Part shown: piece by piece, positions 3,887-25,170 of the stretch
Layout: each line of letters opens with the position of its first letter
Position numbering within the stretch: the stretch's first letter is position 1
Assembly (NCBI GenBank): GCA_005954745.1
Contig: CP040679.1
Span: forward strand, 186,001 to 250,000
Source of the DNA: Halostella pelagica
GTDB lineage: Archaea > Halobacteriota > Halobacteria > Halobacteriales > Natronoarchaeaceae
Length of the DNA stretch: 64,000 nt
Direction: 5' to 3'
Translations under genes and position numbers: made by a program
Notes under the pieces: model-generated
What the model was told of the DNA's origin: nothing
The model's database searches: none
The model's input: the letters and a program-made list of their open reading frames with translations, nothing else

Positions 3887-3947
3887 CTAGTACATGATTT
3901 CGCTTTAGCAGGCACATAAGACCACGTTTTCCGGAGCCAACCGCCTG

Positions 3948-3979
3948 GTTCGGTGCCGGGGTTACAACAGACCCTATCA
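3948..3979 (-). repeat. Degenerate copy E of the ~85-bp palindromic element
   Basis: On the minus strand this reads TGATAGGGTCTGTTGTAAC and onwards, matching the conserved terminus of the better copies near 46.1, 47.4 and 55.7 kb. Its TGA is the stop codon of the nucleoside hydrolase. Only one end is recognisable, so this may be a decayed or partial copy. Confidence 0.5.
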
Positions 3980-7908: not shown

Positions 7909-7930
7909 ACCCCCTATTCAGTGGGCGGCC

Positions 7931-7940
7931 ATATTTAAGT
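7931..7940 (-). promoter_or_regulatory. TATA-like box for the M24 peptidase gene
   Basis: Reads ACTTAAATAT on the minus strand, centred about 27 bases before the ATG at 7908, the usual spacing for a leaderless haloarchaeal transcript. Confidence 0.55.
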
Positions 7941-8130
7941 CCCCATATTACGTCTGGGAATAACCCGTACTGAGTGTTCCTTTCTCGGGAACTCTCTTCG
8001 TTCATTGCCGCACTGCCATTCACTCGCGACTACCGTATCGGAGTGCGGGTTTCAAAACACAGTCCGACAGCAATAATCCCCTGTTCCATAACTATATTAC
8101 ACGATAGGAGCAAAGAGGTATCAAATCGCC

Positions 8131-8895: not shown

Positions 8896-9508
8896 TAACC
8901 CTCTACGCCCTCCCGTTATTCCGGTCACAGTTGAACTCTTCAGGTATTCTTTCAGCTGTTCTCTGAACAGTATTGTCTACCTCTCCCGGTCTCTGCGTAA
9001 CGTCCGGAAACGAGAGTAGCCCTTTCCACACGACGTGAGTTGAACCCGTTTACGTGCTTGCTCTGCTCCCGGTTCCGAATAACCGAACAGATCGTTACTT
9101 TGCGGTCTCGTTCACCACTTCCTTTACGGACATAGGTGTGTAATGCATATCGGCTTCCGCTTCGGGCCGTCCTTCCCTAAAGACTGATATCGCCGGTGTA
9201 GCGGGCCTTGGTTGGAAATCGCGAGTATTCTCTTCTCGGGAACCGCAGTTCGAGAACGTCCGTAACGTGGGCCGATTAACCGATAGCTCCCACGTACCGG
9301 AAGAATCCCGCTGATCCAGCTAACTGGCCTCCTGTACACATTCCCTCGAAAACCAACGCTTGCGCCAAAGCCGTCCCTGGTGGAACTACTGACAGTATTC
9401 CGCTCTACGGAAACCACGGCCGTACCCCGTGTTCAGATACAAAGAAACGAGCGCCTCTCCTGCCCACTGCACGTGATCGTGTACTGGTCTACTGACGTAT
9501 TGGGGTAA
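8896..9508. other. Spacer of about 610 bases without a gene
   Basis: No frame here has the acidic composition or codon pattern of the neighbours. I see no repeat, RNA gene or strong palindrome. The aminotransferase promoter begins at its right end. Confidence 0.5.
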
Positions 9509-9516
9509 TTTTATAC
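9509..9516 (+). promoter_or_regulatory. TATA-like box for the aminotransferase gene
   Basis: TTTTATAC, centred about 26 bases before the ATG at 9539. This spacing supports that ATG rather than the internal one at 9569. Confidence 0.6.
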
Positions 9517-9538
9517 ATGTGTAAAATGAGAGTCGACT

Positions 9539-10711
9539 ATGCTCGGTCAACAGACTGCAGCGGACAGAATGGACCATATCCCGTTTTCGGGCATCCGAGA
9601 GATCTTCGAAGAGTGTGACCGCCTCGAGGCTGCTGGTGAAGACGTTGTCCATCTCGAGATAGGCCGTCCCGATTTCGACACCCCGAAACCGATCAAGGAT
9701 GCGGCCGTTTCGGCGCTCGACTCGGGTCACGTCCACTACACGTCCAACTACGGGATCAGCGAACTTCGAGAGACGATCGCGGCGAAGTTCGACCGCGATA
9801 ACGACATCGCATACGACCCGGACCAGGAAGTGATCGTAACGACGGGGGCCACAGAAGCGATCCTCGTGAGCGTCTTCGCGTTCGTCGGCCAGGGGGACGA
9901 AGTACTCGTTCCGAACCCGAGTTGGACGTATGCGCCCAGTGTTCGGATGGCCGGTGGGACACCTGTTTCCTATAGCCTCGACCCCGAGACCGGGTTCCAG
10001 CCCGACCTAAGCGAACTCCGCGAAAACGTCTCTGACCGAACCGAGCTTCTCATCGTTAACAGTCCGCAGAATCCGACGGGTGGCGTCGTCGACGAGGACC
10101 GGATCGACGCCCTGGCTGAGTTCGCCGTCGAGAACGACCTCGTCGTCCTGTCCGACGAAATCTACGAGAAGATCCTCTACGACGATTCGGAACACCACAG
10201 CTTAGCCGCGCATCCCGAGCTATACGACAGAACGATCTCCGTTAACGGCGTTTCCAAAGCCTATTCGATGACCGGATGGCGACTCGGATACCTCGGAGCG
10301 CCGGAGGAGCTTATCGATCCCATCATTCGAGTCCGACAGTATACGACGACTTGCGCGCCATCGCTCTCGCAACACGCGGCCGTTCGCGCCATCGGGAGCG
10401 GCCTCCACGAACCGATGGTGGAGGCGTTTGCCGACCGCCGTGACCGTCTCCTCGAACGTCTGGACCGGATCCCCGGGATGGACTGTCCCGTCCCCAGCGG
10501 CGCGTTCTACGCGTTCCCGACGCTTCCTGAGGGGTACGAGGACGAGAACGAATTCGTCTGGTCGCTCCTCCGAGAGCAAAACGTGGCAATGGTGCCCGGT
10601 TCCGTGTTCGGATCGAACGGCAACGGACGGCTCCGTATCGCGTACTCGAACTCGGTCGAGCGGATCGACGAGGCGTTCGACCGCATTGAGGCGTGGTTGG
10701 CTGACGAGTAA
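9539..10711 (+). CDS. Class I/II pyridoxal-phosphate aminotransferase
   Basis: A 390-residue fold-type I aminotransferase. Visible features are VHLEIGRPDFDTP near the N-terminus, YTSNYGISELRE, the cofactor-binding NSPQNPTGG, LSDEIYEKILY, and the Schiff-base lysine in NGVSKAYSMTGWRLGY (near residue 240). The AspC/PatA-like group transfers amino groups between aspartate, aromatic or branched amino acids and 2-oxoglutarate; the exact donor is not readable. It follows the IclR gene on the same strand. A TATA box 26 bases upstream of the ATG supports a leaderless start. Confidence 0.9.
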   Translation: MLGQQTAADRMDHIPFSGIREIFEECDRLEAAGEDVVHLEIGRPDFDTPKPIKDAAVSALDSGHVHYTSNYGISELRETIAAKFDRDNDIAYDPDQEVIVTTGATEAILVSVFAFVGQGDEVLVPNPSWTYAPSVRMAGGTPVSYSLDPETGFQPDLSELRENVSDRTELLIVNSPQNPTGGVVDEDRIDALAEFAVENDLVVLSDEIYEKILYDDSEHHSLAAHPELYDRTISVNGVSKAYSMTGWRLGYLGAPEELIDPIIRVRQYTTTCAPSLSQHAAVRAIGSGLHEPMVEAFADRRDRLLERLDRIPGMDCPVPSGAFYAFPTLPEGYEDENEFVWSLLREQNVAMVPGSVFGSNGNGRLRIAYSNSVERIDEAFDRIEAWLADE

Positions 10712-10850
10712 ACGACTCGTTCCGGACTGCTCCGGTGCGGTTCAGAACAACCTGCCCGGGTCGATACTGTGTTCTGTTCCTCCGTTTCGATAGCTGGTTA
10801 CGGAGCGGTGGCACTGATGCACGTGAGTCCTCTACGCATGACCCAAAATA

Positions 10851-10858
10851 TTATATAA
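10851..10858 (+). promoter_or_regulatory. TATA-like box for the cupin gene
   Basis: TTATATAA within an AT-rich block, about 30 bases before the ATG at 10887. Confidence 0.55.
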
Positions 10859-10886
10859 CTAGTCGCCAATTCTACATACGCGACCA

Positions 10887-11237
10887 ATGAAGCCTGTTAA
10901 CTTCGACAACGCCGAAACGTATGAGCCCGATGATGGATGGCGGCGAGTTTCGCTTGCTGGTAGCGACCAGTTCACGTTTGAGTGGTTTGAGAAGCCACCG
11001 GGGCATTCCTCACCCATGCACGACCACGAAAACGAACAGGTCTGTCTCGTTCTAGAGGGTGAACTCACCATCTTCACCGAGAACGACGACGTTACGCTCT
11101 CACGGTTCGATTCTGTCCTTCTGGAATCGTGGGAACGTCATCGCGTCGAAAACACCGGGGATGAAACCGCCGTAGCGGTCGACGTCTTTGCTCCCGGGCG
11201 CGGATTCGACTTCTGGACCGATCGAGATGACGAGTAG
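10887..11237 (+). CDS. Small cupin-domain protein
   Basis: A 116-residue single-domain cupin. The two cupin motifs are visible: HSSPMHDHENEQVCLVLEGE (metal-binding histidines and glutamate) and a second block SWERHRVENTGDETAVAVDVF. Such proteins bind a metal ion and act as isomerases, dioxygenases, lyases or small sensors. It has its own TATA box and stands alone between the aminotransferase and the convergent FAD oxidase. Function is not assignable; its location suggests a role in the amino-acid catabolic island. Confidence 0.82.
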   Translation: MKPVNFDNAETYEPDDGWRRVSLAGSDQFTFEWFEKPPGHSSPMHDHENEQVCLVLEGELTIFTENDDVTLSRFDSVLLESWERHRVENTGDETAVAVDVFAPGRGFDFWTDRDDE

Positions 11238-11548
11238 TCGACGAGAGACGATCTGCGAATAGGTATCGAGACGAAAACTCGTCCGGCGGTGAATCACTCG
11301 ATTAGCCGCATGCCTGTTCATGCGATGGTTTTCACAGACCCACGGAGCCGGATAGTCAACGACCGTGCGATTCTACCGGGCGGGACCGTTCCCGGCCCGC
11401 CCAGTATCGCCGGCAGTTCGACGGTTCATTCTGTCCCACTGCCACTGAAAATCTAGATTAGATGATGGCTTCTGTCTGTCACCGCTCACACGAAGTAACT
11501 ACGCGACGGTTTCTCTGCAGGACCGTCCATTTCGTCTGTCCGTTACGT
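11238..11548. other. Convergent spacer of about 310 bases
   Basis: Lies between the ends of the cupin and FAD-oxidase genes. A GC-rich imperfect hairpin (around 11375-11405, CGGGCGGGACC and the matching GGCCCGCCC) might act in transcription termination. Nothing else stands out. Confidence 0.4.
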
Positions 11549-12700
11549 TCAATCTATGACCGTTCCTTCTTCGAGCGTCGATCCGTCATCGAACCGATCT
11601 AGCGTCAACATCGAGATGTCGACCGTCGACGGCTTTCCGTCGACTATGATTTCAGCTACTAGCTTTCCCGTCGCCGGTGCCTGCATGAACCCGTGTCCCG
11701 AAAAGCCGACGGCGTTTACGAACCCGGGTCGGATTTCCTCGATTATCGGATGGTGGTCCGGTGTCACAGCGTACAGCCCCGCCCAGGAATCTCGAATCTC
11801 CGACCTCGGTCCGAAATATCCCGCACACTCCGCCGCTTGTTCGATCACCTGTGCAGACCAGTCGAGCGAGACACGCTGTGAGAAGTCGTCCGGATCCATC
11901 TCGGGATCCGTCTCGTCGAAATGTCCGCCCGCGACGACGTTGCCGTTTCGCTCCGGCCGGAAGTGAACGCTCCTATCGGCGTCGATCGTAAACGGAACTG
12001 AATCCGGTACCGAAGTTTCCGGGTCGAGGATAACTAACTGCCGCCGACGGGGCGAAACGGGAAGTGAAACGTTTGCCATTTCCGCTATCCGGGCCGCCCA
12101 GGGGCCTGCCGCGTTGACTACGTAATCGGCCGTGATCGTCGTCTCCTCCGTCTTGACACCGGTGACTCTCCCGTTTTCCTGCAGGACGTCCGTTACCTCT
12201 TCTTTCGTTCGGATATCTACGCCCTCATCGCTCGCAGCGGTGGCGAACCCCTGTAGTCCCAGATGAGGGTCCGCGAACCCGTCCGTTGGCGAGTACGCCG
12301 CGCCCGCGAAGTCGTCAGCATCCAAAGCCGGACAGATTTCCGCCGCCTCGTCCGGGCTGATGAACTCGCTCTCCACGCCGACCTCGTTCTGCCGTTTCAC
12401 GTTTTCCCGGAACTGCTCCGCCGTCGCGTCTTCACGGGCGAGAAACAGATATCCGGGTCGCCGATATCTGATGTCGACGCCGAACTCATCTTCGAACGTT
12501 TCCCACACCTTGATACTCTCCTGTGAGAGCTTCGCGCTTACCGGAGACGAAAACTGCGCCCGTATCCCGCCGTTTGCTCTGTCCGTGCTTCCGGATCCAA
12601 GGTTTGACTTCTCTAGTATCGTTACGTCCGCTCCGCGCTTTGCAAGATAATAGCCGCACGAAACGCCGACTATTCCACCACCTATGATAACAGCATCCAT
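11549..12700 (-). CDS. FAD-dependent oxidoreductase of the DAO family (sarcosine oxidase/proline dehydrogenase beta-like)
   Basis: A 383-residue protein with an N-terminal FAD-binding Rossmann motif GGGIVGVSCGYYLAKRGADV (residues 7-26), the family block STDRANGGIRAQFS and a C-terminal GFSGHGFMQAPATGKLVAE that closes the FAD site. The DAO family includes sarcosine and glycine oxidases, D-hydroxyproline dehydrogenase and the beta subunit of archaeal proline dehydrogenases. Given the symporter, P5C-type dehydrogenase and hydroxyproline enzymes nearby, oxidation of proline or a related secondary amine is a reasonable inference. A TATA-like GTTATATAGA (12721-12730, minus strand) is centred 26 bases upstream of the ATG. 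Confidence 0.88.
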   Translation of the reverse strand: MDAVIIGGGIVGVSCGYYLAKRGADVTILEKSNLGSGSTDRANGGIRAQFSSPVSAKLSQESIKVWETFEDEFGVDIRYRRPGYLFLAREDATAEQFRENVKRQNEVGVESEFISPDEAAEICPALDADDFAGAAYSPTDGFADPHLGLQGFATAASDEGVDIRTKEEVTDVLQENGRVTGVKTEETTITADYVVNAAGPWAARIAEMANVSLPVSPRRRQLVILDPETSVPDSVPFTIDADRSVHFRPERNGNVVAGGHFDETDPEMDPDDFSQRVSLDWSAQVIEQAAECAGYFGPRSEIRDSWAGLYAVTPDHHPIIEEIRPGFVNAVGFSGHGFMQAPATGKLVAEIIVDGKPSTVDISMLTLDRFDDGSTLEEGTVID

Positions 12701-13266
12701 AGTGACGTATTACGAGTCGGTCTATATAACGCTACCTGTTACTTCGGTATGTTGCTTATATTATACTCGGAGCGAACTTTCACGGAAAGGGTGCTAGTTC
12801 TTCATATCACAAATATAGTTTTTACTCAGAGAGGAACGAGACCGAGATCAGCGTATATGGTTCTTCGACGGACTGAGCTACTTGTACACACTGACTACTA
12901 GGCTATCTAGCCTATTCTCCCAGGGTTCTTTCCTCCCTGCGGAATGTTTGTTCGGTTCGTTGCGATATCTTCCGAAAAAACAGCCGGATGACTCATTGAA
13001 CGGCACATATATTACACTAATAGTGCCGTAATATATGGGGTTCTACATCACTGTTCGGAAACTCACGGGACTGGGTTTTGATTCATCATCCACGGCTCAG
13101 TCCCTCAGCGTCCCGATTCTCCCAGTGGTTCCGGAGAGAGGAACAAAACCCGTCGCATTGGAAACCGAGATCCCCCGAATTTCTCTTCGAACAGTTCCGA
13201 GATTTTCTCGGTCTCCCATCCGTTTTCACTTCTGCGAGGATAGTCGAATTCCTTCTATAGAGACAC
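12701..13266. other. Spacer of about 565 bases with a nested palindrome
   Basis: No gene is supported. The first 30 bases hold the oxidase promoter. A compact set of nested inverted repeats lies at 13002-13036. The rest is featureless and slightly AT-rich. Confidence 0.5.
13002..13036. repeat. Nested inverted repeats
   Basis: GGCAC (13002-13006) pairs with GTGCC (13023-13027), ATATATTAC pairs with GTAATATAT (ending near 13036), and the centre CACTAATAGTG is itself palindromic. Only one of these pairings can form at a time. It may be a protein-binding site; it is about 300 bases upstream of the oxidase start. Confidence 0.5.
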
Positions 13267-14049
13267 TCAGAGGTCGGAAGAGCGGAGAGCCGACTCTACG
13301 CCGGCGTCGTCGTGGACTATATCTGCGACCGCAGTTGCCATCGCCCCGGGGGACGAGTGCTGGAAGACGGACCGACCCATCGAAACCCCTGCGGCACCTG
13401 CGTCCATCGCGCCGCGGACGTTGCTCAACATCTCCTCAGTCGACTGCGGGCTCCCACCGGCCATAATGACTGGCACTCCCACTGCCTCGGTGACGGATTC
13501 GTAGCTCTCGACGGATCCGCTGTAAGCCGTCTTAACGATATCCGCACCGACCTCTTCCCCGAGGCGAGCCGCGTGAGCCAGGTTCTCGGCGTCGTGTTCG
13601 TCGACATCCGGCCCCCGCGCGTAGGTCATGGCAAGCACTGGGAGACCGAACTCGTGTGCGTCCTTCGTCACCGTTGCGAGCTGTTCGATCTGTCTGGGCT
13701 CGTAATTGCTGCCGACATTGAGGTGGATCGAGACAGCGTCTGCGCCCGCGCGGACGGCCTCTTTGACGGTTCCTGTGACCCGTTTATCGTTCGGGTCCGG
13801 TCCTCGCGTTGTCGAGGCGTTGAGGTGGATGATGTACCCTTTACCGTTTTTGTTCGGATGAACTCGGGGGGCAAGCCCTTTCTGCGTGAGAACACTGTCA
13901 GCGCCACCGCGTGTGACCGCGTCGATCGTCTCTTCGATATTTGTAAGCCCGCGTGTCGCTCCGATCGTAATTCCGTGGTCCATCGGGATATTGACGTACT
14001 TTCCGTCCCGTCCGATGCGGTCGAGTCGTGCTTTGGTTCCTGTCTGCAT
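13267..14049 (-). CDS. Class I aldolase, FbaB/ADH-synthase (DeoC-like) family
   Basis: A 260-residue TIM-barrel aldolase. It has the PMDHG motif near residue 23 (catalytic Asp), the tyrosine-containing MTYARGPDVDEHD and the Schiff-base lysine in ADIVKTAYSGS near residue 176, followed by the phosphate-binding MAGGSPQS and GAAGVSMGRSVFQH. This arrangement matches archaeal fructose-bisphosphate aldolase and 2-amino-3,7-dideoxyheptulosonate synthase (AroA') relatives. As a second copy inside a catabolic island it may cleave or form a different phosphorylated sugar. It is followed, on the same strand, by the FAD oxidase after a 565-base gap, so it is probably a separate transcript. Confidence 0.85.
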   Translation of the reverse strand: MQTGTKARLDRIGRDGKYVNIPMDHGITIGATRGLTNIEETIDAVTRGGADSVLTQKGLAPRVHPNKNGKGYIIHLNASTTRGPDPNDKRVTGTVKEAVRAGADAVSIHLNVGSNYEPRQIEQLATVTKDAHEFGLPVLAMTYARGPDVDEHDAENLAHAARLGEEVGADIVKTAYSGSVESYESVTEAVGVPVIMAGGSPQSTEEMLSNVRGAMDAGAAGVSMGRSVFQHSSPGAMATAVADIVHDDAGVESALRSSDL

Positions 14050-14198
14050 GGTCCATATCAGTGTACTACGATGACTAATGCTTTCCGAATCTCGGATTTA
14101 TCCGGAATGATTAAAGCGTAATGAAGTTTGATACCCGCTCGATCGAATCCTCTCTCCATTCCCTGTCGGATCTGATCCGTCTGCTCCCGGACGATTTC

Positions 14199-14303
14199 TC
14201 AATCGGCACTGTGTGGCGGGGTGTAATCGCAGTTGCTGCATGTCAAAGAGCGGCCCTGTAGTTCTATACGATCCTCTTCGCACCTCGGGCAAACGAACGA
14301 CAT
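14199..14303 (-). CDS. Very small zinc-finger protein (CPxC...CxxC)
   Basis: A 34-residue frame starting MSFVCPRCEEDRIE and ending with CSNCDYTPPHSAD, giving two CxxC knuckles. Haloarchaea carry many such micro zinc-finger proteins. A TATA-like TTTAAC on the minus strand (around 14329-14335) is centred 29 bases before this ATG, which favours it over longer forms starting at 14354. Role unknown. It lies between the aldolase and the divergent Fe-S oxidoreductase. Confidence 0.55.
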   Translation of the reverse strand: MSFVCPRCEEDRIELQGRSLTCSNCDYTPPHSAD

Positions 14304-14451
14304 TGAACGCCAGTATCTCGCCTTCCTTGTTAAATCTATCTTTACTTGGGGCATGGTACCGTGTATCTTTTTCTGTCTATCAAACGACAGTATCGATGAC
14401 AGGCCCCGCGAAGTGATAAGATTTAAGCGCTCGGTCCTCCGGTGGTTGCAC

Positions 14452-16527
14452 ATGACTTACGTAGCCCAGGCGGAGGGTGCAGTTACACGCGAGACGTTCT
14501 GGACGATCAGCGAGGTCGGAGAAGTCCTGTTTTACTACCTCGCGGCGGTCGCGATTCTGGTGTTCCTGTACGGGGTGTACGAGCGGTTCGCCCGCTACGC
14601 CCGCGGCACCGACGACTGGTTCGACCGCTTGAACGACCTGCCTGGACGCGTTGTCTCCGCGACGACGATCGTCTTCTCTAACCAGAAGCAGTTCGACCGC
14701 GACCGCTACGCCGGGCTGATGCACGCGTTCATCTTCTGGGGGTTCCTGACGCTTTTGATCGGCACGACCATCCTCGGCATCGACATGGACCTCGCCCGAA
14801 AGATCGGCGACTCGTTCTGGACCGGCGACTTCTATCTGGCGTACTCGCTGACGATGGACGCGATGGGCCTGCTGTTCGTCGTCGGCATCGGCATGGCACT
14901 GTACCGGCGCTACTGGGTCCGCAACGAGCGCCTCTGGGGGAAACACACCAGTGCGGAGGACGACCTTTTCATCTGGTCGCTGTTCCTGCTCGGCGTCGGC
15001 GGCTACGTCGCCGAGGGGATCCGGATCGTCGGCACCGGCTTCCCCGAGTTCGAAACCGTCAGCTTCGTCGGCTGGTTCCTCGCCGACGTGTTCGTTATCG
15101 CCGGCATGACCGAGTCGCTGGCCGTCGACCTCTACTGGTGGGCGTGGTGGTCTCACGCCGTCCTCGCGCTGGCGTTCGTCGCATCGGTCCCGTACGCGAA
15201 ACCGTTCCACATGATCTCCTCGTACGCAAACGTCGTCACGCGCGACGAGAAGGCAGGCAAACGCCTGCCGGGTGTCCCCGAGGACGCCAGTCCCGACGAG
15301 ATCGGCTACAGCGACGTCGAGGACTTCTCCTGGAAAGACGTTCTCGACCAGGACGCCTGCACAAAATGCGGCCGGTGCTCGTCGGCTTGCCCGGCGAAAG
15401 CATCGGGGCGGCCACTCGACCCGCGCGACGTGATCCTTGACCTGAAGTCCTACCGCGAGTCGGTCGAGGCCGGCGAGACCGAGGAGAAGGCGATCATCGC
15501 CGATGGCGGGGCGAGCGTCATCGACAGTTCGACGATGGAGTCCTGCATGGCGTGTATGGCGTGTATGGACGCCTGTCCGGTCGAGATAGAGCATCTCAAG
15601 CAGTTCACGGGGATGAACCGGCGGCTGACCGAGTCGGGGCAGATGGACGAGAACGTCCAGGAGGCGATGATGAACGTGTTCCAGAACGGCAACACGTTCG
15701 GGGACCCCGACCGCAAGCGCCCGGACTGGGCCGAGGAGTTGGACTTCGAGGTGCCGGACGCCCGCGATGAGGCAGTCGAATACGTCTGGTATGTGGGCGA
15801 CTACCCGAGTTACGACGAGCGCAACAAGCGGATCGCGCGGGCGCTGGCGACCGTGTTCGAGCACGCGGGCGTCGACTACGGGATCCTCTACGAGGACGAA
15901 CAGACGGCGGGTAACGACGTACGCCGTGTGGGCGAGGAGGGACTGTACGAGATGCTCGTGGAGGACAACGCGGCGGCGATTCAGGACTGCGAGTTCGAGA
16001 AGATAGTGACGACGGACCCGCACGCGTTCAACACGTTCATGAACGAGTATCCGGAGTTCGACGCCTGCGAGTGGGAGGCCGAGGACGTGTTCCACTACAC
16101 GCAGGTGGTCGACGACCTGGCGAGTCGGGGCGCGCTGGATCTGGACGGGACGGACCTGGACTACACGGTTACGTATCACGACCCGTGTCACCTGGGGCGG
16201 TACAACGACGTGTTCGAGGCACCCCGTGACTTGGTCCGCGCGACAGGGGCTGATCTCTACGAGATGCCGCGGAACCGCTCGGACTCGTTCTGTTGTGGCG
16301 GCGGCGGTGGCGGGTTGTGGATGGACTTCGACGAGGAGCCAAAGCCGAGCGAGGAACGACTGCGGGAGGCCTTGGAAGACACGGAGGCGGGCGGCGCGGT
16401 CGAGAAGTTCGTCGTGGCCTGCCCGATGTGTGCGACGATGTACGAGGACGGGCGCAAGACCGGCGGGTTCGAGGACGAGATAGAGGTCGTCGGACTGACG
16501 GAACTGGTCGCGGAGGCGCTCGGCTAG
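14452..16527 (+). CDS. Membrane-bound Fe-S oxidoreductase, HdrD/GlpC-like with NarI-like membrane domain
   Basis: A 691-residue fusion. Residues 1-260 hold about six membrane segments with histidines in MHAFIFWGF and WWSHAVLALAF that could bind haem b. Then come two [4Fe-4S] motifs, CTKCGRCSSACPAK and CMACMACMDACPVE, and a CCG-type C-terminal part with CHLGRYNDVF, FCCGGGGGGLW and ACPMCATMY. Such proteins move electrons from a flavoenzyme to the membrane quinone pool. The first CCG module lacks its cysteines (DEQTAGNDVRRVGEEGLY). A TATA-like AAGATTTAAG about 30 bases upstream supports the ATG at 14452 over longer frames. It could accept electrons from the DAO-family oxidase nearby; that link is inference. 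Confidence 0.88.
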   Translation: MTYVAQAEGAVTRETFWTISEVGEVLFYYLAAVAILVFLYGVYERFARYARGTDDWFDRLNDLPGRVVSATTIVFSNQKQFDRDRYAGLMHAFIFWGFLTLLIGTTILGIDMDLARKIGDSFWTGDFYLAYSLTMDAMGLLFVVGIGMALYRRYWVRNERLWGKHTSAEDDLFIWSLFLLGVGGYVAEGIRIVGTGFPEFETVSFVGWFLADVFVIAGMTESLAVDLYWWAWWSHAVLALAFVASVPYAKPFHMISSYANVVTRDEKAGKRLPGVPEDASPDEIGYSDVEDFSWKDVLDQDACTKCGRCSSACPAKASGRPLDPRDVILDLKSYRESVEAGETEEKAIIADGGASVIDSSTMESCMACMACMDACPVEIEHLKQFTGMNRRLTESGQMDENVQEAMMNVFQNGNTFGDPDRKRPDWAEELDFEVPDARDEAVEYVWYVGDYPSYDERNKRIARALATVFEHAGVDYGILYEDEQTAGNDVRRVGEEGLYEMLVEDNAAAIQDCEFEKIVTTDPHAFNTFMNEYPEFDACEWEAEDVFHYTQVVDDLASRGALDLDGTDLDYTVTYHDPCHLGRYNDVFEAPRDLVRATGADLYEMPRNRSDSFCCGGGGGGLWMDFDEEPKPSEERLREALEDTEAGGAVEKFVVACPMCATMYEDGRKTGGFEDEIEVVGLTELVAEALG

Positions 16528-16823
16528 GAGGAGCGCGCCGCCGCGTTGTAGACAGCGGCAATATCCGAGACGTTAGCCTGCTCTGACCCGTAACCAAACG
16601 ACAAGACCTACCGACTGACCGGTACTGTACGTAGATACGTCACGCATACGCGACTGTCGACGTCGAGTGTCGTCGGAAAGCTATCGTAGCGCTCGCAAGT
16701 AATCACAGACCAGATCCCCGGACTACGTGCGATCTAAGTCTGTAGACAGTTGCAAATGCCTCTATAGGCCGATGATCAGTGAGTCGCTAGCTTCCCGTGG
16801 CTCTGGACAGACACAGACCAAAA
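16528..16823. other. Spacer of about 300 bases
   Basis: No gene or repeat recognised; it ends at the promoter of the aldehyde dehydrogenase. Confidence 0.4.
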
Positions 16824-16830
16824 CATATAA
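16824..16830 (+). promoter_or_regulatory. TATA-like box for the aldehyde dehydrogenase gene
   Basis: CATATAA, about 29 bases before the GTG at 16856; this spacing is the main support for the GTG start. Confidence 0.5.
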
Positions 16831-16855
16831 GACCTAGTAGACATCCCTTTCACCC

Positions 16856-18439
16856 GTGCAACCTGTAGAATACGATGACGAGCTGACGTACCATACACAT
16901 AAGCAAAATGGCAAAGAAGAGGACTTCCACGACACCTACGAAGAAGCGATAGAGTCCGTCAAGACCGAATTCGGCGAGTTCCATCCGCTCTGGATCGACG
17001 GGGACAGCGTCGAGACCGAGGACCGATTCAGCGTTACGAACCCCGGGAACCTCGATACGGAGATCGGCGAGTTCGCCGCAGGCGGCGAAGCGGAAGTCAA
17101 CACTGCTGTCAGTGCAGCCAAGGACGCGTCCACCGAATGGGAGCAGATGGACGTCGAATCGCGCGTCGAGATCTTCCAGAACGCCGCCGAGATCATGCGA
17201 GAGCGGAAGTACGAACTCGCAGCGACGCTCTCCCTCGAAAACGGGAAGAACCGGACCGAGGCGATGGCCGACGTCGACGAGTCTATCGACTTCCTGGAGT
17301 TCTACAGCCGCGAGTTCGAACGGTCGGACGGGTACGAGTTCGACACCGGCGAGCCGACGCCGGGACAGCACACCACGAACCTGCTGCGACCGTACGGCGT
17401 TTTCGCGGTTATTTCGCCGTTTAACTTCCCGATGGCGCTGCTCGTGGGGATGACAACGGGCGCACTGGTCACGGGCAACACCGTCGTCGCAAAGCCCGCC
17501 TCCACGACGCCGCTGACCGCACAAAAGTACACGAGTATCCTCTCCGAAGCGGGCATTCCGGATGGCGTGTTTAACCTGGTCATGGGTGGCGGTCGATCGG
17601 TCGGTCAGCCCCTCATCGAACACGAGGACGTTTCCGGCGTCGCATTCACTGGCTCCCGAGACGTGGGGTACAACATCCAGAAGACGTTCTTCGAGCAGGG
17701 CAAGCGGGGTCCGGTCATCGCCGAACTCGGCGGAAAGAACCCTGTGATCGTGAGCGACGAGGCGGACCTCGACGACGCGGTCGAAGGCGTCATGAAAGGC
17801 GCGTTCACGTTCAGTGGCCAGAAGTGTTCCGCGACATCCCGCGTGTACGTTCACGACGATGTCATCGACGAGTTCACGGACCAACTGGTCGCAGAGACCG
17901 AACAGTTGGGTATCGGTCCCGCAGAAGATCGCGATACCGTCATCTCTCCGCTGATCGACGACAGCGCCCTCGAACACTACCAGTCGATCACCGAGCAGGC
18001 CCGGGCTGACGGGACAGTTCGAACGGGCGGCTCCGCGATCGATGAGGGCGACCTCGCCGACGGGCGGTTCGTCGAACCGACCGTCGTCACGGATATCCCC
18101 CACGAACACGAACTCGCACGCGAGGAACACTTCGTTCCGTTCGTGACGATCCACCCGATATCGGACCTGGACGAAGGGATCGAAAAATCGAACGACAGCG
18201 AATACGGCCTCTGTGCGGGCCTCTTCTCGGAGGACGAGGCGGAGATCGACCAGTGGTTCGACGAGGTCGAATCCGGAATGTGTTACGTGAACAGATCACA
18301 GAGCGCAACCACGGGCGCACTGGTGCAGGCACAGCCGTTCGGCGGCTGGAAGTTCTCCGGTACGACGGGGAAGTTTGCCGGTGGGTACTGGTATCTCCAG
18401 CAGTTCATGCGCGAGCAGAGCCGAACGCGCGTCGAATAA
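16856..18439 (+). CDS. Aldehyde dehydrogenase, 1-pyrroline-5-carboxylate dehydrogenase type
   Basis: A 527-residue NAD(P)-dependent dehydrogenase with a GTG start. It has the Rossmann part (YGVFAVISPFNFPMALLVG), the general-base glutamate in IAELGGKNPVIV and the catalytic cysteine in TFSGQKCSATSRVYV. The extended N-terminus and the C-terminal QPFGGWKFSGTTGKFAGGYW block are those of P5C dehydrogenases rather than short-chain aldehyde dehydrogenases. It would oxidise glutamate-5-semialdehyde to glutamate, the last step of proline breakdown. The nearby sodium/proline symporter and hydroxyproline genes support this. A role on 2-oxoglutarate semialdehyde cannot be excluded. Confidence 0.87.
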   Translation: MQPVEYDDELTYHTHKQNGKEEDFHDTYEEAIESVKTEFGEFHPLWIDGDSVETEDRFSVTNPGNLDTEIGEFAAGGEAEVNTAVSAAKDASTEWEQMDVESRVEIFQNAAEIMRERKYELAATLSLENGKNRTEAMADVDESIDFLEFYSREFERSDGYEFDTGEPTPGQHTTNLLRPYGVFAVISPFNFPMALLVGMTTGALVTGNTVVAKPASTTPLTAQKYTSILSEAGIPDGVFNLVMGGGRSVGQPLIEHEDVSGVAFTGSRDVGYNIQKTFFEQGKRGPVIAELGGKNPVIVSDEADLDDAVEGVMKGAFTFSGQKCSATSRVYVHDDVIDEFTDQLVAETEQLGIGPAEDRDTVISPLIDDSALEHYQSITEQARADGTVRTGGSAIDEGDLADGRFVEPTVVTDIPHEHELAREEHFVPFVTIHPISDLDEGIEKSNDSEYGLCAGLFSEDEAEIDQWFDEVESGMCYVNRSQSATTGALVQAQPFGGWKFSGTTGKFAGGYWYLQQFMREQSRTRVE

Positions 18440-18700
18440 CCCGACTCGTCCCGTTTCCGCGAACTGTTTTCGTCACACGTTCGAACGACGACTCTCTGGA
18501 CGCCCGACCAGCGGTCTGTTTCACAGCGGGCCTGAGCTAACACCTCGTCACGACCGGCTCAACGAACGAGGGCGCGCGGTTTCGACCGTCATTCTGCGTT
18601 CTGGCCGTAGGGTTGTAACTGAGTGGTACGCGTCGACGGCCTATCGAAAAATGGGGGTTCTCCGTGGGCGGGGTCCGATTCCGGTCGTTGCCCGAGAAGC

Positions 18701-19492
18701 CTACAGGTTGGATTTGCCGTTACCGCCGTCGATCGGTATTGCGACTCCGTTGATGTAGCTGGAGTGGTCTGAGGACAGGAACGCGACGGTGTCACCGAGC
18801 TCTCGCGGTTCTCCTATCCGGCCGAGCGGGATCCCGTCACCGCGGGCCTCTAGTCCATCCTCGTAGGAGTCGTACTCGCCGCGTTCGACGCCCTGGTTGA
18901 TGAGGTCCTCGATCCGGCTGGTCTCGTGCGGACCGGGAAGGACGGCGTTCACGCGGACCTCCGGTGCCAGTTCCTTCGACAGCGTCTTTTCGAGTCCGAT
19001 CACACTCATCCGAACTGAGTTCGATAGGACCAGCGAATCGATAGCCTCCTTGACGCTTCGTGACGTGATGTTGACGACCGTTCCGCCGTCTCCAGCCTGC
19101 AAATGCTCGGCAGACTCGCGGACTAACCGAACGACGCTCATCACGAGGAGGTCGAACGCCTGATACCAGTCGTCGTCTTCCATCTCCATGAACGGACCGC
19201 TCGGCGGGCCACCCGCCGACGTGACGAGGTGGTCGATCGTTCCGAACTCGTCGACAGTCTGGCTGACCAGGGATTCGATGTCGGCTTTGTCGGTGAGATC
19301 TGCTGTTACCCCGATCACCTCTCCGGATCCGAGTTCGTCGACGCTTTCGACGGCCTCGTTTAGCTGTTCGGGGTCCCGTCCGTTCATGACGACGTGTGCG
19401 TTACCTTCGGCGAGCGATTCGGCGGAAGCGCGGCCGAGTCCGCTACTCGATGCAGTCACGAGGGCTACCTGACCATCAAAATCCAGTGACAT
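18701..19492 (-). CDS. SDR-family oxidoreductase
   Basis: A 263-residue short-chain dehydrogenase. It has the cofactor-binding TASSSGLGRASAESLA near residue 12, the HLVTSAGGPPSGPF (NAG-like) block and a C-terminal ELGDTVAFLSSDHSSYINGV. The usual YxxxK catalytic pair is not obvious: the segment after VVNITSRSVKEAIDSLVLSN reads SNSVRMSVIGLEK, so the tyrosine appears to be replaced. This may be a divergent SDR with altered chemistry. The ATG at 19492 is chosen because a TATA-like block (19515-19527) sits about 28 bases upstream on the minus strand. Substrate unknown. Confidence 0.83.
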   Translation of the reverse strand: MSLDFDGQVALVTASSSGLGRASAESLAEGNAHVVMNGRDPEQLNEAVESVDELGSGEVIGVTADLTDKADIESLVSQTVDEFGTIDHLVTSAGGPPSGPFMEMEDDDWYQAFDLLVMSVVRLVRESAEHLQAGDGGTVVNITSRSVKEAIDSLVLSNSVRMSVIGLEKTLSKELAPEVRVNAVLPGPHETSRIEDLINQGVERGEYDSYEDGLEARGDGIPLGRIGEPRELGDTVAFLSSDHSSYINGVAIPIDGGNGKSNL

Positions 19493-19514
19493 TGTACTGG
19501 ATAGTGGACTTCCC

Positions 19515-19527
19515 ATATTAATATATC
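19515..19527 (-). promoter_or_regulatory. TATA-like box for the SDR gene
   Basis: AT-only block ATATATTAATATG on the minus strand centred about 28 bases before the ATG at 19492. Confidence 0.55.
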
Positions 19528-19529
19528 TT

Positions 19530-20239
19530 TGGTCATCGGCGTTTTCGAGACTCACCGCTCCGAAAAGAGAGACAACGCACAGAGCCGTGGACTGCAATTC
19601 AGAACTGTCCCGCGTCGTAACTGGCGATGAACACTGACTGGGGTGGGAAGCGGGTGTCGTCTCTCTCATACACTGTTCCTCTTTCGGGAACTTCGCCTGG
19701 CCAGTCGGCCCCGAGACAGCCGGGGCTAACGGATGAACTCCCGGAATTTACGTCAATACCACTGTAAATTCTTGCAACGGCGCTCCGGCCCGATGCACCG
19801 TCCGTTTTCCGAAAACGCGAAAACCGTGCGGAGAACCGCTGAGATGTAATTCTGCTCTGATACTCGACTGTTCGCACGCTACAAACGCGGAACCGAAACG
19901 CCACGGGGTTATTCCTCAGAGGGGAACAGAACGGACCGTGATTCGGTCAATTTGACGGCGAATTCAACACTGTTACCGCGGCACGGATGCGGACGTGAGT
20001 GCCCGATTGAACTGTGCTCTTCCCGTGACAACGACTGGGATACATTTGTTTACAGAGCGTACTTCGGCGTCGGTGCCCGAGACTGCTCTCCGACCTGTCT
20101 ACCCGATTTCGCATCGCTGTCACCGGGTGCTTCGGGTTCTCCGATACCCCAGGTGGGCTTCGCGGCGGTGATCTGTTCCATACTTTGCCGTCAAGATGTA
20201 TTCCGGTATGCGGAACGACCCGTTTCGGACCGTACCGAA
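19530..20239. other. Spacer of about 710 bases without a gene
   Basis: Short open frames on both strands lack haloarchaeal amino-acid composition and recognisable domains. No repeat or RNA gene was seen. Its size suggests a decayed gene, but I cannot identify one. Confidence 0.45.
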
Positions 20240-21271
20240 TCACCTGAGGAAGAACCCGTTCTGAAACGGGTCGGCCGGATCGAGAACGAACTGGCTCTGT
20301 CCGGTGAGGTAGGCGTTTCCGGTGATATTGGGCAGAACCGCATCGTACCCTCCGTACGACTCGGTTTCCTCGTACGTCCCCGTGAATTCAGAGCCGACGA
20401 TGCTTTCGACGACCAGTTCCTCGGTCGGGGCGAGGCGACCGCGGTGAGACTGCAGTGCCACGCGACCGCTCACACCGGTGCCGGTCGGACACCGGTCGAC
20501 TTCCCCATCAGCGAAAATACACACGTTCCTCGTATCCGCACTGCTGTTCTCCGGTTCGCCGCGGATGATGGTTCCATAGAGGAAGCTGAGATCGTCTTCG
20601 AACGGGTGTTCGATGTCCCGGGACTCGCTCACCGCGGCTTTGATCGTGCGACCGGCATCGACAAGTTCCCCGACGGAGTCGGAGTCGAGGTCGACGCCGA
20701 GGTCAGCAGCGTCGCAGTAGGCGTAGAACGCACCGCCGAAAGCGAGGTCGTACTCGACGGACCCGAGTTCGGGAACCTCGACCGAGCAGTCCGTTTCGAC
20801 GACGAACGAGGGGACGTTTTCGAAGGTAACCGTCCCCGCGTTGCCTCGCTCGTCGACTTGCACTCTGGCAGTGACGAGGCCGGCAGGCGTGTCCATCGCG
20901 ACAGTCGTTACCGGTGTCTCGGCCTCGACGAACTCTGTTTCGACCGCTACCTTCGCCAATGCGATGACTCCGTGGCCACACATCGTGCTGTAGCCCTCGT
21001 TATGGAGGAACAGGACGCCGAAATCAGCGTCGTCCGTGACCGGCTCAGTCACCACTGCGCCGTACATATCCGCGTGACCGCGTGGCTCTAGAATTATCGC
21101 TTTGCGGAACTCGTCGAGGTTGTTCTCCATGTACCTGCGTTTTTCCAGCATCGTATCGCCCTCTACTGACGGAAGGCCGTCAGTCAGGATGCGTAGCGGT
21201 TCGCCTCCCGTGTGTGCGTCTATCGTGGAGATAGTCGTCCACTGCTCTGGTGGTGACCAGTTTACGTCCAT
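20240..21271 (-). CDS. Proline racemase superfamily: probable trans-3-hydroxy-L-proline dehydratase
   Basis: A 343-residue protein with N-terminal IDAHTGGEPLRI, the first catalytic motif MCGHG (Cys98) and the second motif DRCPTGTGVSGRVALQ, where the residue matching the second catalytic cysteine of racemases is Thr263. A Cys/Thr pair is the hallmark of trans-3-hydroxyproline dehydratase (as in human L3HYPDH), while proline racemase and 4-hydroxyproline epimerase have Cys/Cys. The product would be 1-pyrroline-2-carboxylate. It lies divergent to the sodium/proline symporter, with the candidate reductase of that product just beyond, so the three make a coherent pathway. Cytoplasmic; no signal peptide. 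Confidence 0.88.
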   Translation of the reverse strand: MDVNWSPPEQWTTISTIDAHTGGEPLRILTDGLPSVEGDTMLEKRRYMENNLDEFRKAIILEPRGHADMYGAVVTEPVTDDADFGVLFLHNEGYSTMCGHGVIALAKVAVETEFVEAETPVTTVAMDTPAGLVTARVQVDERGNAGTVTFENVPSFVVETDCSVEVPELGSVEYDLAFGGAFYAYCDAADLGVDLDSDSVGELVDAGRTIKAAVSESRDIEHPFEDDLSFLYGTIIRGEPENSSADTRNVCIFADGEVDRCPTGTGVSGRVALQSHRGRLAPTEELVVESIVGSEFTGTYEETESYGGYDAVLPNITGNAYLTGQSQFVLDPADPFQNGFFLR

Positions 21272-21591
21272 CGTCTGTCTCCCTTAGCCTACTCGCGGAT
21301 GCCAAAAAGTGTACTGGTCGGTACAGTTCAGGCTTGGGACATCCACGTTACGGGAGGATAGCGGACCGCTCGCCAGAGCGTGTACGAGGCTTCGACAGCG
21401 AGTACGTCCGATTCGCTGATCCGCATTCACTGTGGGATCGGTTCTGTCTTCGAGCGAGTTCGCTGGGGGTCTACATCTGATGCTGAGAGAGACGGGCACT
21501 CAACCGACTCGCACTTCCACAGTGGGTCCGAACGATCCACGTCCCCACCGGGAGCTGTATTTTTCAGCTCACCAATCATTGAGTTTCACGA

Positions 21592-21604
21592 TTAAATATA
21601 AATA
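21592..21604 (+). promoter_or_regulatory. TATA-like box for the symporter gene
   Basis: TTAAATATAAATA, about 40 bases before the ATG at 21640. A GAGG at 21627-21630 lies ten bases before the ATG, so this transcript probably has a short leader with a ribosome-binding site. Confidence 0.5.
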
Positions 21605-21639
21605 TGGGTGGGGTTTACAGATGAGTGAGGTACACAAAC

Positions 21640-23136
21640 ATGGTAAGCGCAGGCAGTAATACAGCCATAGGCTTAGTAGGCTATCTAGTGGTTGTGGCCG
21701 TGATCGGATACTGGGGTTCAAAGAAGATCAATACGGAAGCGGACTTCTTCATCGGGGGTGACCAACTGCCCGGATGGGCGTTGGCGCTCTCGGAACGAAG
21801 TTCCGACATGTCCGGGTGGCTCCTGTTAGGGATGCCCGGTCTCGCGTGGGCTGCTGGCTTGTCGTCAGTCTGGGCCATTGTCGGTGCCGCTGGCGGTGCA
21901 ATCTTCCAGTGGGTCGTCTACTCCCGTCCGTTCATGGAAGGTAGAAAAGAAACCGGAGCGATCACCCCGATAGGGCTCCTCGCGGAAAAACTCCCGACGG
22001 AGTCACCCGTACTTCGCATCCTGCCCGGCATCGTCGCATTCGTGTTCTACATGGGCTACGTCGGGTCCCAGTTCTTGGCCGGTGGAAAGATATTCGAGAG
22101 CGTCTTCGGCGTCAACGCGACGACCGGATTACTCGTCGTCGCAGTGCTGATCATCGCCTACGCGCTTGCGGGCGGCTTCCTGGCGGTCGTCTGGACTGAC
22201 ACGATGCAAGCGTTACTGATGGTTTTCACACTCGTGGTCCTCCCGGGCATCTTGCTCGTTCAGGTTCTGATGGACCCGTCGATGTCGATCATGGGAAGCC
22301 TCGAAGCGTCCGGCGGCGGACGGTCTTCGTGGTTAGGCGGTGCAACAGGTGGAGCCGCGTTCGTCCTCATCGGGGCGAACCTCAGCTGGTTCCTGGCCTG
22401 TCTCGGCGGCTATCCGCACCTCACGCAGCGGTTAATGGCCGTCCGAAACGAACAGGAGCGCCGAACCGCGATCATCGTTTCGACGGTCTGGGGCGTTCTG
22501 ACGGCCATCGGGACGGTTCTCCTCGGCCTCCTCGCCCGGACGATTCACGGCGCACCTGAAGCGATCCAGGCCGACCGCGAAATGGTCCTTCCGTACATGG
22601 TCCTGGAGCACACTCCGGGACTTCTCGGAGGTATTCTGCTTGCGGGCGCCCTCGCTGCGATGATGTCTACTGCAGACTCCCAGCTGGTCGTGGCGAGTTC
22701 GGCGGCAGCACACGACATCTACAACAAAGTGGTCAAGAAAGGCGAGGACTTCACGGAGAAAAAGCGGGTTCGGATCTCCCGCATCGGTACGCTGGCTGTC
22801 GGTGCGGTCGGTCTCGCTATCGCCGGTTTAGCTCAGAGCCTCGTGTACACGCTGGTTAGCTATTCCGCGACCGGGCTGTTCTCCGCGTTCGGTCCGGCGT
22901 TCACGCTCTTGTTCTTCTGGGGTGACCGGTTCTCGAAGGCAGGGCTCATTGCGGCGTTCCTCGCTGGACCGATCGTCACTGTGCTGTGGGTGACGATGGG
23001 GTATACTGACATCGTGACGGTCCGTCTCGTCGCGCCGCCGGTCGGATTCGCCGCTGCGATCATCGCATCGCTGATCTGGCCTCGCGGCAAAGAAGTCACG
23101 GAGAAGCCAAAGCCCGGGGCTACACCGCAGGATTAG
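21640..23136 (+). CDS. putP: Sodium/proline symporter (SSS family, PutP-like)
   Basis: A 498-residue transporter with about 13 hydrophobic segments. Diagnostic stretches are FFIGGDQLPGWALALSERSS, the PutP hallmark SSDMSGWLLLGMPGLAWAAG, MGYVGSQFLAGGKIFE and AAMMSTADSQLVVASSA near residue 345. The SSS family couples solute uptake to sodium, which suits a halophile. The ATG at 21640 is preceded by GAGG at a good distance. It sits between the hydroxyproline dehydratase (divergent) and the OCD-family reductase (convergent), which suggests uptake of proline or hydroxyproline. Confidence 0.92.
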   Translation: MVSAGSNTAIGLVGYLVVVAVIGYWGSKKINTEADFFIGGDQLPGWALALSERSSDMSGWLLLGMPGLAWAAGLSSVWAIVGAAGGAIFQWVVYSRPFMEGRKETGAITPIGLLAEKLPTESPVLRILPGIVAFVFYMGYVGSQFLAGGKIFESVFGVNATTGLLVVAVLIIAYALAGGFLAVVWTDTMQALLMVFTLVVLPGILLVQVLMDPSMSIMGSLEASGGGRSSWLGGATGGAAFVLIGANLSWFLACLGGYPHLTQRLMAVRNEQERRTAIIVSTVWGVLTAIGTVLLGLLARTIHGAPEAIQADREMVLPYMVLEHTPGLLGGILLAGALAAMMSTADSQLVVASSAAAHDIYNKVVKKGEDFTEKKRVRISRIGTLAVGAVGLAIAGLAQSLVYTLVSYSATGLFSAFGPAFTLLFFWGDRFSKAGLIAAFLAGPIVTVLWVTMGYTDIVTVRLVAPPVGFAAAIIASLIWPRGKEVTEKPKPGATPQD

Positions 23137-23177
23137 GCGAATTCGTCTTCCACGATTCTCACGCTCTCCGTGAGTGA

Positions 23178-23217
23178 CCGCCGACGTTCGAGTGATCATC
23201 CCCGCCGACGTTCGAGT
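23178..23217. repeat. Short direct repeat
   Basis: The 16-mer CCGCCGACGTTCGAGT occurs at 23178-23193 and again at 23202-23217, spaced by 24 bases, just after the symporter gene. Confidence 0.6.
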
Positions 23218-23263
23218 TACCTCCTCCCGGTGACGCTGCGAGCGATCCGTAGCTACGTGGGTG

Positions 23264-23296
23264 TGAAATACCGAACTGACGGACAACAGTCCCTAT
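23264..23296 (-). repeat. Partial copy A of the ~85-bp palindromic element
   Basis: On the minus strand it begins TGATAGGGACTGTTGTCC and continues through GTCAGTTCGGTATTT, matching copy D at nearly every position. The other half is absent. It lies in the gap between the convergent symporter and OCD-family genes. Confidence 0.7.
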
Positions 23297-23369
23297 CAAG
23301 GGAAAGCGGCGATTCGAACACACACCGCGTCTACCGTGCGACACCGTAGAGTTCATCGCCCGCACCGGA

Positions 23370-24341
23370 TCAGGTCGGCTGTGTGGTTCCGACTCCTTTC
23401 TCGCGGGCCGCTTCGTACACCTCTGTCGCCGCGGCGGCGTCGAGTACGGCAGTCCCCACGCTCTCGACTACGAGTATCTCGTCTCTCGATTCACGTCCTG
23501 TCGTCCCTTCGAACAGCGCCGCTATCGGGATGAGGTCGTCCGCCGCCAGATCGGTTGCGGCGAGATCGCCGATCGTCGTCACCTCCTCGGGGACGTCCGC
23601 GAACACTCGGGACGCGCGGTCGAAGACGGCTGGTTCGAGCTCCTGCATCTCTGCGTCGTACGCCCCGACTGCGATGACCACTGTCCCCGGTGAGAGCGCC
23701 GCGGCCGGGAAGACCGGCTCGGAACTGGTCGTCGCCGTGACGACGACGGACGCGTCGCGAACGGCCGCTGCGGGCGTGTCGACGGCGGTCGCCGAGATCC
23801 CGTGTTCGCGGAGGTCCGCGACGCAGTCGTGTTTCGAGTCGCTCGGCGAATAGACGGAGACGGACTCGATGTCAGTTAACGCGGCGATCGCCCGGGTCTG
23901 CCAGCGTGCCTGTGCGCCAGCGCCGATGACGCCGAGCGTAATGGGTTCGTTCGCGAGTTCGCGGGCGGCCAGCCCGCCGATACAGCCGGTCCGAGCGTTC
24001 GTGATTCGGGTACCGTCCATGAATGCGGCCGGCTGGCCCGTTCGCGCGTCTGAGAGAACGATCTGTGCGTGGAGCATCGGCAGCGAGCGCTTCTTGTTTC
24101 CGTCGTGGAGGCTGACCAGCTTCGTCGCAAAGTACTCCTCCGCGTGAATGTACGCCGGCATGACTAATCCGGTGCCGAGTGGTTCACTGGAGTCGAGGTC
24201 AGCGCCGATCGGGTAGTGCGGTCGCTCCGGGCGTTCGACCTCTCCCGAATGCTGTTTTTCGAGGGCGCGTTCGACGATCGGGGCGAGCGTCTCGATGTCG
24301 ATCAGTCGCTCGATCTCCGCGTCAGTGAGGAACAGACCCAT
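23370..24341 (-). CDS. Ornithine cyclodeaminase/mu-crystallin family reductase (probable 1-pyrroline-2-carboxylate reductase)
   Basis: A 323-residue protein beginning MGLFLTDAEIERLIDI, with the substrate segment ATKLVSLHDGNKKRSLP and a Rossmann motif LGVIGAGAQARWQTRAI near residue 130. The family holds ornithine cyclodeaminase, alanine dehydrogenase and ketimine reductases such as 1-pyrroline-2-carboxylate reductase (LhpI). Placed with a trans-3-hydroxyproline dehydratase and a proline symporter, the last activity is most likely: reduction of the dehydratase product to L-proline with NAD(P)H. The ATG at 24341 matches family N-termini; a longer form from 24383 is possible. Confidence 0.87.
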   Translation of the reverse strand: MGLFLTDAEIERLIDIETLAPIVERALEKQHSGEVERPERPHYPIGADLDSSEPLGTGLVMPAYIHAEEYFATKLVSLHDGNKKRSLPMLHAQIVLSDARTGQPAAFMDGTRITNARTGCIGGLAARELANEPITLGVIGAGAQARWQTRAIAALTDIESVSVYSPSDSKHDCVADLREHGISATAVDTPAAAVRDASVVVTATTSSEPVFPAAALSPGTVVIAVGAYDAEMQELEPAVFDRASRVFADVPEEVTTIGDLAATDLAADDLIPIAALFEGTTGRESRDEILVVESVGTAVLDAAAATEVYEAAREKGVGTTQPT

Positions 24342-25170
24342 GCGAGCACGTACGGGATCCGGGATGTTATGTGTTCCTGTCACGTTCCGGGAATACTCGG
24401 GAAATACGAAGACGGGATTCTGTGTTTCCTACGTGACTTCTAGCCGCAAACGCCCACCACGTCCACTCGTTTCACGATCCGATGTCGATATCGACGAGTG
24501 GGTGGTGACAGACGCAGATCGCGCCGAGGACATGTCGGCGACGTTCAACCGAACTGAGATGAAGGCGGTAGCTCTGGATTCGCACTGGTGATCGTCGACT
24601 GTTCAGCTCCGCATCAGAGAGTTCGGGTGTCCGGGGATACCGATGCAAAAATTGCTCTGTGGGGCCTAGCTATGGGAGGCTGCGCTGTACCCTTGTACTA
24701 CGTTCCAGCGGTTCGTTGGACTGTTCATGCAATGAGTTGCGACCCGTTACGTTTGGCGTATCCGTTTCTAGTGTTGATGTTGAAATCGTCTGGAACCATT
24801 CATAGCCCCAACCACGTTCGCCGTTGCCCGGATCAGATTGTACTTCTACAATCATTAACACGAAACTGGCACAACTACTGTCGACATCGCCACGGTTTTC
24901 GATCCGGCTCCATACTCGTCCGAGGACGCTTTGTGTTAGATAACCATATTGTAAAATCACCATTCGAACAAACCTGTTGGTATGATATATATTTGATGTG
25001 GAAGCACACCGCTCTTGGGCGTGCGAGCGAGAGAATATACTTGGGATCGCCTCTTTGTCTCAGACACCGCTCGCTGGACTCGGTTCGGGGAGTAAAAGCT
25101 GCCGTAGCGTTCGTTCAGAGCGTTCGAAAGCCGACCTTCCGGATCGAGACAACTGTTCCTGGCTCGCCCG
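24342..25170. other. Anomalous, AT-richer spacer of about 830 bases
   Basis: Base composition and the amino-acid content of all open frames (many Cys, Trp, Arg, His) differ from the acidic coding regions on both sides. I could not recognise a transposase or other fragment in six frames. A decayed mobile element or relic gene is possible. Confidence 0.45.

Follow-up and report, generated by a model that had tools for sequence, protein, structure and literature searches.

The analysed window is a stretch of 64,000 nucleotides from the haloarchaeon Halostella pelagica (genome G000, 3.94 Mb in four contigs; contig C2, positions 186001-250000). At 20240-24383 it carries three intact open reading frames encoding a protein of the proline racemase fold (20240-21271, minus strand), a PutP-type Na+/solute symporter of the SSF family (21625-23136, plus strand) and a protein of the OCD/mu-crystallin family (23370-24383, minus strand), a candidate 1-pyrroline-2-carboxylate (P2C) reductase. 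The Pfam E values (Pro_racemase, 1e-112; SSF, PF00474, 1.8e-64; OCD_Mu_crystall, 2e-57) are so low that these family assignments do not reflect chance matches. A first-pass annotation had already recognised these genes at 20240-24341, and all three frames are indeed unbroken. However, its end point is an internal ATG of the OCD frame, which at its longest starts from a GTG at 24383, and the interval it gives leaves out nine further genes of a conserved set at 6799-19669, so that the feature is only partly covered.

The motifs MCGHG and DRCPTGTG place Cys98 and Thr263 at the two catalytic positions of the racemase-fold protein, as had been read at first pass. According to the accessible part of a study on archaeal racemases, Cys-Cys pairs belong to racemases and epimerases and Cys-Thr pairs to trans-3-hydroxy-L-proline (T3LHyp) dehydratases, with OCC_00387 of Thermococcus litoralis reported as one of the latter (PMC4364671). 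Among solved relatives, T. litoralis 6r76 was the best match (434 bits), 124 bits ahead of the next, human L3HYPDH (7qpo, 310 bits); the best racemase, AsProR (7pb3), reached 294 bits and TlProR 242 bits. A Pfam search of 391 genomes of the haloarchaeal class gave 80 genomes over the cut-off and, after alignment, 86 proteins, which divide into 24 with Cys/Thr and 62 with Cys/Cys and show no other pair. Identity to the window dehydratase is 52-61% for the Cys/Thr proteins and 25-39% for the Cys/Cys proteins. C98 and T263 are invariant across the 22 aligned haloarchaeal rows (22/24 Cys/Thr proteins, with L081 and L108 left out), and all 80 of the named relatives kept, mostly bacterial, have Cys/Thr as well.

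A racemase or epimerase would share the fold, and the NCBIfam proline racemase model matches the protein with 358 bits. However, Thr263 stands in place of the second cysteine, and the dehydratase model NF045511 scores higher (416 bits, under an equivalog cut-off of 540 that is a naming threshold and not a mechanistic feature). Based on the scores of the solved relatives and the 24/62 split of the pair, we set this alternative aside as extremely improbable. The original assignment as T3LHyp dehydratase is borne out by the match to 6r76, the clean split in 391 genomes and the uniform pair of the named relatives, and the protein very probably has this activity. Two residues ahead of Thr263 lies a second cysteine, Cys261 (DRCPTG in place of DRSPTG), which is common to several haloarchaeal dehydratases and 7/80 named relatives. 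One genome (G371; L039, L068, L080, L081) holds five racemase-family proteins, with Cys/Thr and Cys/Cys mixed. In H. pelagica, the Cys/Thr protein is the sole full-length racemase-family protein, and a search of the genome thus yielded no Cys/Cys epimerase for the bacterial 4-hydroxyproline route.

For the OCD-family protein, sequence alone leaves the role undecided, since the T. litoralis P2C reductase 6t3e (140 bits) and an archaeal alanine dehydrogenase (123 bits) score similarly. It lies below its NCBIfam equivalog cut-off, as do the dehydratase, the symporter and the aldehyde dehydrogenase described below (four proteins in all). The ectoine enzyme EutC was set aside (129 bits against a cut-off of 472). 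In the congener G127, the OCD gene lies just before the dehydratase gene in a same-strand tandem, followed by a symporter, an IclR regulator, a proline dehydrogenase (ProDH) and a ProDH-linked P5C dehydrogenase (P5CDH), which by predicted function is a complete T3LHyp-to-glutamate set. The OCD subfamily is present in 23/23 genomes with a Cys/Thr protein compared to 210/391 overall (Fisher 3e-7, kinship ignored); it adjoins the dehydratase in only two of these 23, and an OCD gene lies inside the fetched flanks of 31/80 named dehydratase relatives.

As far as the accessible text of PMC4113996 goes, bacterial t3HypD and OCD-type P2C reductase pairs follow the same pathway logic, with peptidases and transporters nearby. 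The window OCD protein differs from them in its position in a tree built from matches of at least 60 bits (at least 100 for named relatives; short loci L034 and L035 left out), where it falls into a separate haloarchaeal clade, well removed from the OCDs linked to dehydratases among the named relatives, and joins haloarchaeal OCDs that adjoin FAD oxidases. The proposed role as P2C reductase is thus moderately supported and reasonably likely: the G127 tandem and the presence in all Cys/Thr genomes speak for it, the wide background and the frequent place beside an FAD oxidase against it. In haloarchaea that lack any dehydratase, members of this subfamily frequently accompany a DAO-type FAD oxidase (L153, L156, L162 and many more).

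Comparison of the window's neighbours with all Cys/Thr loci revealed a second, recurring gene set, consisting of an IclR regulator, an aminotransferase, a cupin, an FAD oxidase, an aldolase, a P5CDH-like aldehyde dehydrogenase (ALDH), an SDR oxidoreductase and a symporter, often with an Xaa-Pro peptidase. In the window, it begins with the M24 Xaa-Pro peptidase (6799-7908, minus strand), which is far nearer to Xaa-Pro peptidases (4rgz, 244 bits) than to ectoine hydrolase (91 bits), and ectoine degradation was set aside for this reason. The IclR-family regulator (8131-8895, plus strand) has BhcR as its best NCBIfam model (171 bits, below the cut-off of 350); as BhcR and BhcD models match weakly, the beta-hydroxyaspartate cycle was set aside. 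The class I/II aminotransferase (9539-10711, plus strand) resembles aspartate aminotransferases, with the archaeal enzyme 1gd9 as its best solved match (324 bits), and is followed by a small Cupin_2 protein (10887-11237, plus strand). Next come the DAO-family, archaeal ProDH-beta-like FAD oxidoreductase (11549-12700, minus strand), the DhnA/ADHS-type class I aldolase paralogue (13267-14049, minus strand), a membrane 4Fe-4S/CCG protein (14233-16527, start uncertain, plus strand), the ALDH (16856-18439, plus strand) and the SDR oxidoreductase (18701-19669, minus strand; homology sets in near 19490, the probable true start). The membrane protein, which has the same gene in G127 (L161), is a candidate electron acceptor. 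A phage-integrase-family recombinase (5377-6573) adjoins the peptidase end, so mobility is possible. A group at positions 1-4903, with ABC permease genes and a gene for an inosine-uridine hydrolase, seems to be a distinct cluster for nucleoside salvage.

Three of these enzymes bear most directly on the substrate. The oxidase is closest to 1y56_B (224 bits; next solved match 133), which we take to be from the P. horikoshii proline dehydrogenase. The ALDH is closest to P5C dehydrogenases (3qan, 362 bits; PutA, 341 bits), with at most 247 bits outside the P5CDH/PutA group (betaine-aldehyde dehydrogenase, 247), and misses the cut-offs of TIGR01237 (453 bits, cut-off 660) and of another NCBIfam model (470 bits, cut-off 648). 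In two genomes (G044 and G323; loci L109 and L112), a protein from the ProDH-linked P5CDH clade occupies its slot, and the step is therefore probably P5CDH-like. The aldolase has MJ0400 as its best solved match (217 bits) and exceeds the cut-off of the ADH synthase (ADHS) model TIGR01949 (345 versus 299 bits), so that its NCBIfam name would be ADHS. It is 66% identical to the genome's second ADHS-type copy and keeps the ADHS catalytic and phosphate-site motifs, read against what we assume to be the catalytic residues of MJ0400. Asn20, a position that we infer to lie in the aldolase barrel, marks the set aldolases (10/10 rows versus 0/28 housekeeping rows).

The set was called by its oxidase at a threshold of 560 bits, set once the drop in scores from 564 to 535 bits was known, and was found in 12/391 genomes; some carriers show fewer than all set genes in the fetched stretches. 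Nine carriers also encode the Cys/Thr dehydratase (G000, G127, G122, G044, G323, G207, G248, G240 and G060, the last with oxidase and dehydratase on different contigs), and three lack any racemase-family match (G047, G361, G091). The cluster of oxidase, P5CDH-type ALDH, aminotransferase and class I aldolase is seen in G000, G127, G044, G323, G361 and G091. Among the 62 Cys/Cys control loci, ProDH occurs in 31, ProDH-linked P5CDH in 24 and a symporter of the window type in one. At the thresholds used, none of these loci has the set ALDH, oxidase, SDR, cupin, aldolase, aminotransferase, OCD or IclR. The 80 named dehydratase relatives, most of them bacterial, have no aldolase or cupin of the set type nearby.

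A Natrononativus plasmid carries the set together with genes for a dipeptide ABC transporter, Xaa-Pro peptidases and a DPP IV-like protein; on plasmids of Halorubrum lacusprofundi and Halorussus limi, the set-type ALDH stands alone. On the latter plasmid (L274, 1175-15270), genes for malate synthase, an isocitrate-lyase-family protein, a TPP-requiring enzyme and a D-2-hydroxyacid dehydrogenase are found close to the lone ALDH, and an IS6 transposase lies in between.

The symporter of the window matches TIGR02121 (PutP sodium/proline symporter) with 294 bits, under the cut-off of 515.5, and likely carries a proline-type substrate. In the symporter tree, it groups with the symporters of the second set (SH-aLRT 99), one of them from a genome without the dehydratase, rather than with the symporter on the dehydratase side of G127, a genome that holds two symporters, one per branch. 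This placement suggests that the window symporter probably serves the second gene set and speaks against the earlier view of a private 3-hydroxyproline importer. The idea of a self-contained three-gene import-and-use module is unsupported for a further reason: the proline formed requires ProDH and P5C dehydrogenase for its breakdown, and these are encoded about 60 kb from the three genes in G000 (ProDH about 60 kb from the OCD gene).

Could the dehydratase, the OCD reductase and the symporter alone form the T3LHyp module, with the neighbouring set serving an unrelated amino acid and lying there by chance? The three carriers without a racemase-family protein would fit, as would the 14/23 dehydratase genomes that lack the set as judged by the oxidase; one of the 14, G017, nevertheless has the set's aldolase next to the dehydratase, along with two weaker oxidases, and the one more fully annotated locus without the set (L114) has neighbours that look unrelated. 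Against chance stand the co-occurrence, with the dehydratase in 9/12 set carriers versus 23/391 genomes overall (Fisher 3e-10, kinship ignored), the physical linkage repeated in 8 genomes of several families, and the symporter's grouping with the set. Taken together, we regard a chance neighbourhood as unlikely.

A second route for L-proline or proline peptides would have an archaeal-type ProDH as its oxidase and a P5CDH as its ALDH, with the aminotransferase leading to 2-oxoglutarate and the aldolase serving another purpose. Such a route would account for the nearest relatives of oxidase and ALDH, the exchange of the ALDH with P5CDH in two genomes and the Xaa-Pro peptidase in the set. However, all 12 carriers have a separate ProDH, so plain proline breakdown explains the set poorly. 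Moreover, proline needs no aldolase, yet the extra copy tracks the set: among 40 relatives, exactly four have a second ADHS-type aldolase, and all four are set carriers. We regard this reading as rather unlikely.

Oxidases of the DAO family frequently target alpha C-N bonds. If the set oxidase attacked the alpha carbon, it would give pyrroline-4-hydroxy-2-carboxylate, the open form of which the aldolase would cut to pyruvate and aminoacetaldehyde, with the ALDH leading on to glycine. Such a scheme would accommodate oxidase, aldolase and ALDH together, but the epimerase to make the D-substrate was not found in G000, and the exchange of the ALDH with P5CDH points to a substrate like glutamate semialdehyde. 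We consider this scheme improbable.

Our preferred reading is that the 6.8-24.4 kb region constitutes a two-branch hydroxyproline island, a proposal with somewhat less than an even chance of being right; all its substrates are predictions placed on observed genes, families, a catalytic pair and a recurrence. In the first branch, the Cys/Thr dehydratase would take water from trans-3-hydroxy-L-proline to yield pyrroline-2-carboxylate, the OCD-family enzyme would reduce this to L-proline, and ProDH and P5C dehydrogenase encoded elsewhere on the contig would turn L-proline into glutamate. In the second branch, the PutP-like symporter and the Xaa-Pro peptidase would provide another proline-like compound, for which trans-4-hydroxy-L-proline is the likeliest candidate. 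The FAD oxidase would convert it to 3-hydroxy-P5C, the P5CDH-like ALDH to 4-hydroxyglutamate and the aminotransferase to 4-hydroxy-2-oxoglutarate, which the aldolase would split into pyruvate and glyoxylate.

An oxidase, a P5CDH-like ALDH, an aspartate-type aminotransferase and a class I aldolase are, in this order, what the conversion of trans-4-hydroxyproline to pyruvate and glyoxylate needs. On chemical grounds, 3-hydroxyproline taken through the same order of steps would give no product that an aldolase can cleave. The retained aldolase motifs and the 66% identity to the ADHS copy, on the other hand, argue against an unphosphorylated substrate and count against the second branch as drawn. 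Also unfavourable to the island reading are the ALDH relatives that stand alone on plasmids and the lack of a set-type aldolase or cupin near the named relatives, and the scheme leaves the SDR and the cupin without a step. We regard 4-hydroxyproline as a plausible but tentative substrate of the second branch.

In the accessible part of PMC4364671, the T3LHyp cluster of T. litoralis comprises the dehydratase OCC_00387, the P2C reductase OCC_00362(7) and ProDH genes. It thereby resembles the island in that genes for a Cys/Thr dehydratase, an OCD-family reductase and ProDH stand close together in an archaeon, but that part makes no mention of a symporter, a P5CDH-like ALDH, an aminotransferase, an aldolase, an SDR or a cupin, and the cluster holds an extra Cys/Cys racemase/epimerase, for which G000 has no counterpart. 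The same portion of the study describes HjProR of Haloarcula japonica as a haloarchaeal Cys/Cys ProR beside ProDH. HjProR shares fold and organism class with the window protein, and ProDH likewise accompanies half of our Cys/Cys loci; proteins of this type differ in their Cys/Cys pair, their low identity to the window protein and the absence of second-set enzymes nearby. The bacterial 4-hydroxyproline route, as far as described there, has the same substrate as proposed for the second branch but needs a Cys/Cys epimerase. The step order of the second branch as proposed matches vertebrate hydroxyproline degradation, which ends in HOG aldolase. The vertebrate oxidase and aldolase belong to families other than those of the island.

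In the PMC literature, which leaves subscription journals largely outside, we found no title on haloarchaeal hydroxyproline breakdown beyond the archaeal racemase study (PMC4364671). Hydroxyproline is reported, in the accessible part of PMC5655121, as a compatible solute of halophilic bacteria, and a pathway consuming it in those brines would thus be ecologically sensible. As judged from sequence, a known pathway likely occurs here in a haloarchaeal variant, of which the second branch is the more novel part. The fullest version of the proposal, which we advance only as a speculative one, is a complete haloarchaeal oxidative trans-4-hydroxyproline pathway that would follow the animal step logic with another oxidase and another aldolase, the latter of DhnA type and recruited from the ADH-synthase family as a 4-hydroxy-2-oxoglutarate aldolase, and that would share one island with the 3-hydroxyproline branch and be fed by hydroxyproline from peptides or from the compatible solutes of halophilic bacteria. 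If the second branch proves true, it would represent a second route of animal type that yields pyruvate and glyoxylate while drawing in part on other enzyme families, and a recurring gene set would gain a substrate.
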